DNA of 64,000 nucleotides, taken from contig NW_015622542.1 in the NCBI RefSeq assembly GCF_000835495.1, positions 2,812,485 to 2,876,484 on the forward strand. Direction: 5' to 3'. Shown piece by piece: positions 16,418-21,216 of this stretch. How positions within the stretch are numbered: position 1 is the first letter of the stretch; each line of letters begins with the position of its first letter. This DNA is from Cladophialophora immunda. Its lineage: Eukaryota > Ascomycota > Eurotiomycetes > Chaetothyriales > Herpotrichiellaceae. A program made the translations under genes and the position numbers. A model generated the notes under the pieces. That model had not been told where the DNA came from, made no database searches, and saw only the letters and a program-made list of their open reading frames with translations.

Positions 16418-18332
16418 ATGACGACTACGGACGACATCCTTCCTCAGAAAGAAGGCCTATACTCGGCGGAGGCAGTTGGCAGCGAGGACAGCAGCGATGC
16501 CATCGACCAAGATGAGAAGGACATGGCTAGGATGGGCAAGAAGCAGGAGTTCAAGCGCAACTTCAACTGGATCAGCAGTGTCGGCTTCACCTCCTGCACC
16601 ATGGGCACTTGATATGTCTCCCCCGTCTCCCTTGCCGCCTGCTCTGGTACTAACAGTTGCCGCACGGAGTTTGTCGCGTTGAACAATTTCCAAATGCTCG
16701 TCGATGGCGGAACCGCGGGCATGTTCTGGAGTTACACATGGGTGATCACGGGCCAATTCTTCATTGTCCTGAGCCTCGCCGAGATGGCCTCCATGGCCCC
16801 CACCGCCGGAGGACAGTATCACTGGGTCAGCGAGTTTGCCTCGAGACGCTACCAAAAGGCTCTCAGCTACACCTCAGGCTGGCTGAGCTCTCTGTGCTGG
16901 CAATCCTTCGTCGCCTCCGACGCAATGTTCGCCGCCCAGCTTGTCATGGCTCTGGTGCAACTCGGGAACCCCGACTTTGACATTAAGAACTGGTACACTG
17001 CCCTCCTGAGCATTCTTATTGGCACCCTGGTCACCGCGATCAATGTCTGGGGCGCGAAGAAGCTGGCATTGTTGGAAAACGTGTTCGTCGCGCTTCATGT
17101 TGCTGGGTTTTTTGTGGTCCTCATCACCATCGCCGTCGCTTCTCCCAAGAACGATGCAAAGGAGGTCTTTCTCACCTTCACCGACAATGGCGGCAACTTT
17201 CCTCTGAGTATGTTGGACTCTCGCACAGACAACGTCCTGTTATCCTTACTGCACCTTGCACAGTGTCTCTACTCGAATCAGTGCGCCGTATACTGACTGG
17301 AGTCTGCAGTGGGCCTTGCCGTCATGGTTGGCCAGGTACCTGCCATGTGGAATGTCCTGGCCTCGGATGCCGTCGCCCATCTCTGTAAGTACACAATGTC
17401 AGAGGTGATTTTGGGAGTAGCAACTGACGGCCGGTGCAGCGGAAGAAGTCAAAAATGCCAGCGTGGTGACACCGAAGACGATGTTCTGGGCATACATGTT
17501 CAACATCCCTCTCGCCTTCGCCATGTTGATCGTGTTCCTGTTTGGCATGACCGACGTCGCCACTGCTACGACCGAAGCATTTCCTTTTGTGTGGATTTTG
17601 CAGAACTCTCTTAGCACGGCGGGTGCTCAAGCCATCACTTCCATCATGTTTGTAAGTTTCACGCGCCATATGCGCTCTTCTCGGTATTGCCCACAATTAC
17701 TCACTTGTGACCAAAGATCCTGGTGTTCATGATCGCCACCAGCTGTTTCGCGTCGACCTCTCGACAGCTGTTCGCCTTCGCCCGAGACGATGGAATGCCG
17801 TTCCCCACGTGGATGAAGAAGGTCAACCCCAGCCTCAACGTCGCTGCAAACGCATGCTTCGTGACCTGGGGGTATACGGTGGTCATGAGCCTCATCTACC
17901 TCGGCAGCCCGGTCGCCTTCAATGCCATCATCAGCTTGGCCATCGTGGCGTTGATGGCCACGTACGCCATCAGCATTGCTTGCGTGCTCTGGCGGCGCAT
18001 CGCCCTTCCAGAGACTCTCCCACCGGTCTTCTGGAGCCTGGGCAGGCGGGGGATCCTGGTCAACGGGCTCGGCCTCACCTACGCCATCTACGCTTTCTTC
18101 TGGGCATTCTGGCCCATCTACTGGGAGCCCAATGCGGAAGAGGTAAGAAAATGGTTCCGTATTGCTTGCTCTGTGACATGGGAAGCGCTGACCTGATCTT
18201 TCTGCACAGATGAACTGGGCGATCGTCCTGTTTGCGGGAGTAATGTTCATCTCGGCGGTCAACTGGGTCCTCAGTGCCCGGCGCATGTACACCGGTCCCG
18301 TGGCGACATGTGAAGGTCGCCAAGAAGACTGA
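16418..18332 (+). CDS. Amino acid/GABA/choline-type permease (APC superfamily)
   Basis: Six exons, 16418-16611, 16666-17207, 17310-17384, 17440-17651, 17717-18142 and 18210-18332, give 523 aa. A hydrophilic N-terminus leads into KRNFNWISSVGFTSCTMGTW, then about 12 membrane segments. WSYTWVITGQFFIVLSLAEMAS and SVPTAGGQYHW-like text (here MAPTAGGQYHWVSEFA) are hallmarks of the fungal ACT family that includes GABA permease Uga4 and choline permease Hnm1. DAVAHLSEE and SRQLFAFARDDGMPF are further family motifs. It probably imports an amine or amino acid with protons at the plasma or vacuolar membrane. The first intron (16612-16665) has AT-AC ends; no GT-AG choice keeps MGTWEF intact, because TGA follows directly. 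The second intron is 102 nt, the longest here. No regulator is adjacent. Confidence 0.9.
16612..16665 (+). other. Putative AT-AC intron
   Basis: 54 nt beginning ATATGT and ending GCAC, with a perfect TACTAAC branch sequence at 16648-16654. Removing it joins TG to G and restores Thr-Trp-Glu in a conserved permease motif. The donor resembles the common fungal GTATGT with the first G changed to A, and the branch is U2-like, so this would be a U2-type AT-AC intron. Confidence 0.75.
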
Positions 18333-19096: not shown

Positions 19097-21216
19097 CTAT
19101 GCCCGCTGCACGAGTTTCCAGCCCAGTGCCGTCTGTCGCAGCTGCACGCTCATGTTCTTCGACATGGTCTCCATCGTCTTCAGGTCGTCCGACGCGGGGC
19201 TCGTGGGCTGCGGCGCCTCGAACCCATGCCAGAGCAAGGCCAGCGGCGAGGACTTCCAGACGCCCGCCGAGCCCGGCCGCGAGGACTGCGCAACGGTCAA
19301 CCCCAAAAACAGCACGCTCAGCAGCATGAGCGCCGCGGGCAGCGCCAGCCAGGGCCAGTTGATGCTGATGCACGAGTTCTGCAGCAGCTCGGGCGTCTGC
19401 GCCGGCGCGAGGTCCACGTTGCGTCCGTTGCCATCGAGGAGTGCCTTGGGGTTGCTGCGCGCGAAGTTGGTCATGGTGGCGGCGACGTTGTCGAACATCT
19501 GCGCCACGGTGGCGCCCGTGATGCTGCCGTTGCCGTACAGCGCCACCATGACGTTGCTTTGGTTCGCGTCCAGACCATTGATCCAGTACATGGGTGGTGC
19601 TGCGTCGCCGTAGTTGAAAATGTCGGACGCGATGCCGCCGGTGAGGTTGGTCCCGTTGTAGGTCACCCACGCCGTGAGAGGCTGTTTGAATTGGGTGGCG
19701 AACCAGTTGATGACGTTTTTAATGGGACTCTGCACGCCCAATTCATACGATTCGTACTGGTACAGACATTCATCGGGGACGGAGGGATCAGGGGCCATGC
19801 CTTGCAGCACGCGCAGCCCACTAGGGGTGTTGTTGAGAACGGTAAAGTTGTAGGCAATCCATTCGGGGGTGGTATCGATGTTTTGGCGCATGAGGGCCTG
19901 CTTTGTGGCTGGTGGCAGACAGTCGCGATTCAGCATTCGAGAATAGATAACGTCCCATTGGTACGCTGGAGTGATAGGCGGATCTGGCCATACTTGTGAC
20001 TTTCCGACCAGCTCTTCGGAAAAGCTCCCATTGACGACAGCAGACTTGTAGGACTTGACGCAAGGCTTGACAGAGCAGGAAACGGCCTGGGGCGGGTCCG
20101 CAATCCAAGCAATAGTATGATTGACCGAGTACGAGGCAACCTCGTAGTTCACCAGTTTCCAAAGGTCACCACCCTGGAGCGGTATGGACGTGTCAAAGCC
20201 AATATAGTTGGGATTCTCGCCGTCGCCGGGATCCGTGTGCTCGAGAAACCAGCGGCAACTGGGAAGCGTGGCTGTCACCTGTGGCTGTATGTCTCCTGGG
20301 ATGGTACAATTGCGCTGCAATTGGGCGCTGATATCTGTACAGCTGCTGCAGAGGCCGACCGAATGGTATTCCTGGTCGAAGGTGCAGTTTCCGGACTGGC
20401 ACCTGGGCCTGACCTCGAATGACCCCAACCCGAGGGCAGTCGCCAGCATGTTATATTGCATCGTCAACGGCAGGGTTTCCGGAATCTGCAAGGTGTTTGC
20501 GCGCGGGACGTCGCCCAGTGACGATGCATCGGGGATCTGGCAAGGGTAGATGGTGATGACGGCTTGATTGAAGGGGTCGATCACAAGGGAAGCCAAAGAT
20601 ATGATCGCGCCGATGGTCGCCGTAAGCTGTCGTCCGCGAGTCGCCCACAGTAGCTGGATGACCCCAAACGGGTCTCCTCGGAGGGCAGATTCGTAGATCG
20701 CAATGTCGTTCAAAGGTTGCTTCCGCCGGCGGAACCACCTCCATCTCGACTGACCCAGACCTAAGCCAAGGGGTGAGGAGACTCTAGTCATAAGAGCGGG
20801 AAACACTTACATTCCGATGCAATGAGCATGAGTGGCAACTTGAACAGGGCTGTGTACACCGACACGAGCGTGTTGATGGAGAAGCCATGTGGCCAGTTTG
20901 GCTGAGGTTGATTTTGATACTCTTTCAGCGTAATGACCAGCGCGACGAAGACCAGCAGGATCAAGACGCTACCTGCTACCTCCAGCCACCATGAGCTCCA
21001 GAGCCTGCGAATGCTAACGCCGCTGTTTCTCGCACGGCCCGTGGACGCTCCATCCCGAACTTGTGGCGAGTCGGAGCCGTCATGACGATCCTCAGCAAGA
21101 AATCCAGGAGCCTTCCGAGCTTTCTCTGCTACTGGACTTGTTAGAGGTACACGCTGCTCTTGCTCAGCATCAGCAGTGCCTGCACATTCGTCCGGTGGAT
21201 GGGACGGATCGACCAT
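19097..21216 (-). CDS. DUF3176-type membrane protein
   Basis: Two exons, 21216-20811 and 20760-19097, give 689 aa with a 50-nt intron. An N-terminal hydrophilic part precedes the first membrane helix (WWLEVAGSVLILLVFVALVI), a second one near LVSVYTALFKLPLMLIA, and the splice-spanning ASECLGQSRWRWF. A short segment with PLNDIAIYESALRGDPFG and a further helix (IGAIISLASLVIDPFNQAVI) follow, the order I know from DUF3176 proteins. A large cysteine-containing domain, probably outside the membrane, then leads to a final helix near the C-terminus (WLALPAALMLLSVLFLGLTV). No function is established for the family to my knowledge. It is probably in the plasma membrane or secretory system. Confidence 0.82.

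Follow-up and report, generated by a model that had tools for sequence, protein, structure and literature searches.

U2-type AT-AC introns (AT-AC II) are said to have been described by Wu and Krainer in 1997, and Parker and Siliciano reportedly showed in 1993 that, in a mutated yeast reporter, a change of the first intron G to A is compensated by a change of the last G to C. It was from mutants that a contact between the first and the last base of introns was inferred. Here we consider a short intron with such ends in a 64,000-nucleotide (nt) stretch of Cladophialophora immunda DNA (contig NW_015622542.1; hereafter the window), where positions 16612-16665 are, with high confidence and as the best explanation of the evidence as a whole, a U2-type AT-AC intron in a PF13520 gene for an amino-acid/choline-type permease, and one that would be old in its group.

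AT-AC ends make up 0.019 per cent of annotated fungal splice-site pairs (PMC7072748) and 69 of 14305 junctions in RNA sequencing of Trichoderma longibrachiatum (PMC4324775), while 59 such introns were called in Caenorhabditis elegans, at least 42 of them thought real (PMC3033335). Saccharomyces cerevisiae has an AT-AC protointron in SUT635 and an alternative AT-AC junction in RPL30 (PMC6726248). U2-type AT-AC introns are already known, and the interest of the present one (intron 1) lies in its apparent age, in an apparent switch to G/G ends and in a tandem form. Among the literature matches listed, which cover titles and abstract openings and mostly leave subscription literature outside, none concerned this permease intron or AT-AC introns arranged in tandem around a tiny exon.

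Intron 1 of the permease gene

The permease gene (16418-18332, plus strand) is modelled with six exons and a 523-residue product that matches PF13520 (AA_permease_2, 3.4e-48) in Pfam, and shares 93 per cent identity with a protein of Fonsecaea monophora and, across 86 per cent of its length, 95 per cent with one of Cladophialophora bantiana; comparison with solved structures gave no match. The sequence of intron 1, ATATGTCTCCCCCGTCTCCCTTGCCGCCTGCTCTGGTACTAACAGTTGCCGCAC, reads ATATGT...TACTAAC...GCAC and splits a conserved tryptophan codon as TG/G. The codon following MGT is TGA, built from the exon TG and the intron A, and excision of the 54 nt yields MGTWEFVALNN; both the stop one base after MGT and the restoration of TW-EF, as claimed in the original prediction, can be seen directly. 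The ends of intron 1 are AT and AC, its donor is of the major type after the first base, and its branch site is likewise of the major type, with a putative branch A (16653) that lies 12 nt upstream of the 3' end.

Of 27440 start and end pairs tried, 6205 preserved the frame and left it open, and these were scored against a profile built from seven homologues whose reading continues across the site (P0003, P0006, P0008-P0010, P0172 and P0175), a profile that contains MGTWE by construction. The 16612-16665 pair ranked first of the 6205 at 302.6 bits; the margin over the runners-up is narrow (297.5, 297.5 and 297.1 bits), but the ends of these match no known splice sites. The second best of 19 open AT-AC pairs reached 288.2 bits, and the best AT-AG pair (16612-16656), which loses the tryptophan and has its 3' end immediately behind the branch motif, 290.3 bits. 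Conserved residues are deleted by all four open in-frame GT-AG pairs (best 240.9 bits) and by the seven open in-frame GC-AG pairs (best 220.4 bits), so that the earlier claim that no GT-AG pair keeps both the frame and the conserved residues holds among those four. The original observation is confirmed, and its reading as an AT-AC intron in a permease is supported.

Relatives and an apparent tandem form

Short open reading frames (ORFs) corresponding to exon 1 were collected from public records (51 in all, P0121-P0171), and 24 of the 51 stop exactly after MGT, as A at the first intron position would dictate. The C. bantiana counterpart (P0121) is a 64-residue ORF, 91 per cent identical and annotated as a separate gene. 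At the 3' end, the four AT-type relatives to which a strict test applies (P0001, P0004, P0176 and P0177, all with Thr before EF) fit YAC/GGARTTY in 4/4 cases and YAG/GGARTTY in 0/4. P0145 lacks the Phe, which makes the strict test inapplicable, and fits the looser NAC/GGAR, the base before its GGAA being by the code only C or A; TACTAAC can be decoded in both P0145 and P0177. Among the 120 matches listed of 623, four carry the start of exon 2: P0176 and P0177, which were drawn from these, and two that run straight through as MGTWEF (P0172 and P0175). The original prediction had proposed comparing the intron position in orthologues; on this indirect evidence relatives seem to carry the same AT-AC intron at that position.

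One relative appears to have changed both ends. At the donor side P0149, an ORF on a 1875-base contig and on a long branch of the exon-1 tree, fits TG/GTNNG; its acceptor side fits AG/GGARTTYGTNGTN rather than AC. It is likely to hold a G...G version of the intron at the same position, a paired switch to what is likely the GT-AG counterpart. The single branch-site pattern tried there, CTGAC four bases before the AG, did not fit. P0149 agrees with the joint change of the end pair that had originally been proposed, and selection on the pair is something we still only infer.

The surprising part of the finding, absent from the original prediction, is an apparent tandem pair of AT-AC introns in a sister clade. 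A further 24 exon-1 ORFs fit ATGR/ATNNGT in 24/24 cases and ATGR/GTNNGT in 0/24, which would place an upstream ATNNGT donor 7 nt before the intron 1 site in every one, and in 17 of them a CTRAC branch motif could lie at the same offset (40). Only five (P0142, P0145, P0155, P0161 and P0169) extend 70 nt or more beyond the ATG. Each of the five fits YACGCACNTGATNNGT (YAC/GCACNTG/AT), the offset being 54 in four and 57 in P0169; when the tails were shuffled (300 rounds) a mean of 0.03 of 24 fitted and the maximum was 1. These relatives thus appear to have an intron 1a (ATAAGT-like...YAC), decoded as 53 nt in four and 56 nt in P0169, a 7-nt exon GCACNTG, and an intron 1b (ATATGT-like...AC). In P0145 the reading continues to a possible TACTAAC, and NACGGAR fits 12 nt past its branch A. 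Once spliced, the tandem type predicts MGTWE, and MGTWE is found in P0006, which groups with the tandem-type P0150 (support 100/90) and, as one ORF in a 2013-base contig, is most likely a transcript.

It is possible, though on balance doubtful, that the second AT-AC intron of the sister clade is a copy of the first re-inserted 7 nt upstream, a local intron transposition that could proceed by reverse splicing, for example, and that the A/C ends are heritable as a unit that was copied along with the intron, disappeared from some species and gave way to G/G in one or more. For the copying step we offer a guess, prompted by how improbable two neighbouring AT-AC introns would be by chance; introns 1a and 1b are decoded from proteins. 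The exon-1 tree (58 rows by 61 columns, its bootstrap still unsettled) implies three changes for the tandem character and five for the single one, with the MGT-stop rows P0136 and P0139 falling within the tandem clade and P0168 beside it; it has few columns and does not settle gain against loss of the intron.

Several points weigh against the AT-AC explanation as a whole. The relatives' bases were decoded from protein records and not from DNA, and the exon-1 search returned only proteins of about 35 to 112 residues, so that intronless genes were excluded by length and the counts are no census. P0001 and P0004 are gene models in which Thr-EF could span a modelled junction, a problem from which the unannotated ORFs P0176 and P0177 are free, and P0006 could instead be an intronless copy. 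P0132 (4.5-kb contig) and P0175 (7.0-kb contig) read MGTWEF through the site, and intron 1 is therefore not universal; P0172 does likewise, and MGTWEF is also the reading of three Diaporthe proteins (P0008-P0010), which may or may not have an intron there. P0175 looks like DNA without intron 1, because intron-like inserts remain elsewhere in it. Paralogues in the window's own genome also lack intron 1: 30 loci were fetched, three being the window's gene and several pairs overlapping, and of the 24 distinct pieces covering residues 60-66 (one the window's gene) the tryptophan codon is unbroken in 18/23, with no Trp aligned in the other five; several do have introns near the site. Searches of this genome for U6atac and U12 were silent, but so were the control genomes, which leaves this silence no proof of absence, and U11 and U4atac were not searched.

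If there were no intron, the UGA would be read through and the 54 nt would be an insertion of 18 codons in the first membrane segment. The length is divisible by three and the frame has a single stop (MGT-stop-YVSPVSLAACSGTNSCRTEF), yet in P0176 the homologous insert decodes to 55 nt, a length that three does not divide, provided that its first ATG belongs to ATATGT; exon 2 of P0145 is entered in a different frame; and E. viscosa P0003 and P0006 show MGTWEF without any insert; read-through is very improbable. A sequencing error, or a nonsense change in a dying gene, would explain why a gene that is otherwise open has a single stop and is no more credible, given that in 24 separate ORF clusters a conserved exon 1 is followed by a stop at the same codon and that the remainder of the 523-residue product is intact. 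Least probable of all is an intron of the minor spliceosome (U12): it would share the AT-AC ends, but the donor is ATATGT rather than ATATCC and the branch site TACTAAC rather than CCTTAAC, by the published consensus (PMC3033335). A U6 with an ACAGAGA box is present in the genome, U6atac and U12 having stayed undetected in the searches above, and a survey reports no convincing minor introns in Ascomycota (PMC10639083).

Public gene models suggest another solution, GT-AG splicing from an upstream donor, and the models P0001 of F. monophora, P0002 of F. nubica, P0004 of P. macrospora and P0007 of E. xenobiotica do leave out a piece of the conserved stretch. In these models, however, conserved residues of VGFTSCTMGTW are lost, each time with a different outcome, while the window's best GT-AG pair lies 61.7 bits under the AT-AC pair; splicing of this kind is most unlikely. 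With the C. bantiana model P0005, which begins in exon 2, the entries broken at the intron 1 site number five among the seven closest proteins in the databases. E. viscosa P0003 has MGTWEF, whereas P0160, 90 per cent identical over 60 residues, stops at MGT, and the P0003 model may, at a guess, rest on transcripts. Standard gene prediction can break such genes if the AT-AC reading is true, these five proteins being wrong or split at the site.

Gene model and genome-wide scans

The features of the gene model are collected in Table 1. Extra short intron-like inserts absent from the window gene occur in exon 2 of P0175, P0176 and P0178 (near GGQ/QYHW) and would represent fast intron turnover in the permease gene. 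A paralogous permease at C4:5967970-5969599 (L037, L056) is full of stop codons and is a decayed copy. On the minus strand of the window, 19097-20806 is a stop-to-stop frame of 569 codons with a DUF3176 match (PF11374, 4.8e-14).

Table 1. Modelled features of the permease gene, in window positions
Feature	Position	Strand	Remark
Exon 1	16418..16611	+	64 codons plus TG of Trp codon; open from ATG to MGT, next codon TGA
Intron 1, AT-AC, 54 nt, phase 2	16612..16665	+	Top-scoring open in-frame choice; removal restores MGTWEF
Donor ATATGT	16612..16617	+	U2-type GTATGT with A replacing G at +1; direct reading
Branch motif TACTAAC	16648..16654	+	Direct reading
AG abutting branch motif, unused in model	16655..16656	+	Use gives MGTCCRTEF, Trp lost; 290.3 vs 302.6 bits
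Acceptor GCAC, last base C	16662..16665	+	Direct reading
Exon 2	16666..17207	+	First base G completes TGG (Trp65), then GAG TTT (EF)
Intron 2, GT-AG	17208..17309	+	Modelled
Exon 3	17310..17384	+	Gene model
Intron 3, GT-AG	17385..17439	+	Modelled
Exon 4	17440..17651	+	Gene model
Intron 4, GT-AG	17652..17716	+	Modelled
Exon 5	17717..18142	+	Gene model
Intron 5, GT-AG	18143..18209	+	Modelled
Exon 6	18210..18332	+	Runs to stop codon

Scans of the 42.2-Mb genome gave no excess of AT-AC patterns over reversed controls, whether for ATATGT..CTAAC..YACG (21 vs 51), ATAAGT/CTAAC (33 vs 68) or ATATGT/CTGAC (57 vs 59). The canonical GTATGT/CTAAC/YAGG pattern itself gives only 111 vs 84, so the AT-AC patterns are weak detectors and further AT-AC introns are possible. 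Because the motif is commoner in the reversed control, it proves nothing alone, and the evidence for intron 1 is the restored conserved protein together with the relatives. When the 21 ATATGT/CTAAC matches were put to an open-frame test, the full 100 codons were open on both sides only in the window's intron and in L023, whose stretch is 57 nt, a multiple of three. Another match, L011 (ATATGTCTCCC...), was rejected as a second AT-AC case, an ordinary intron fitting better with GTAAGT just upstream and TTCAG after CTAAC. Near-identical dispersed ATAAGT...CTAAC stretches (e.g. C1:2807750, C1:4226970, C3:2006264, C5:1481070 and C8:14374) are a repeat family and not introns.

Probable splicing mechanism and comparison with known systems

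That splicing occurs, that the major spliceosome performs it, that the first A contacts the last C and that the relatives have the exact bases given here are matters we infer from sequence. The donor AUAUGU would be an ordinary GUAUGU with A at +1, and the branch site a perfect UACUAAC. The first A and last C most likely replace the usual contact between first and last G at step 2, because the donor and branch site are of the major type, the survey cited above found no convincing minor introns in Ascomycota, and AT-AC was reported, for a mutated intron in yeast, to be the most efficient end pair after GT-AG (PMC6726248). Step 2 would use the YAC 12 nt past the branch A because the first A would pair with the last C in place of the G-G contact. 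Were the intron retained, the UGA after MGT would leave an unspliced RNA encoding 64 residues only.

The end-pair test seems to have been run in nature here: many relatives would retain A/C, one would carry G/G and a sister clade would have the intron doubled. The permease intron may thereby allow the choice of splice site at step 2 to be studied comparatively in fungi. It shares with the U2-type AT-AC introns (AT-AC II) its AT...AC ends and its major-type donor and branch site, and differs in being a short fungal permease intron that is apparently common to many related ORFs and apparently doubled in a sister clade with a 7-nt exon between. The yeast compensation reporter likewise has A first and C last, whereas the present intron is apparently a natural one kept over evolutionary time, with one relative fitting G...G.

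Among fungi, SUT635 and RPL30 of S. cerevisiae resemble the locus in having AT-AC junctions, which that yeast handles without a minor spliceosome, but the former is a noncoding protointron and the latter an alternative junction of a GT-AG intron, whereas the window's intron would be needed for the coding frame. AT-AC ends in T. longibrachiatum, also a filamentous ascomycete, are known, in the portion of the source at hand, from counts and method rather than conservation. Stwintrons (PMC12403724, PMC9024468) likewise involve two fungal introns removed at nearly one place; there one intron interrupts the splice signal of the other, whereas in 5/5 of the far-reading tandem ORFs no such interruption was found, a coding 7-nt exon decoded from the proteins seeming to lie between two complete AT-AC introns.
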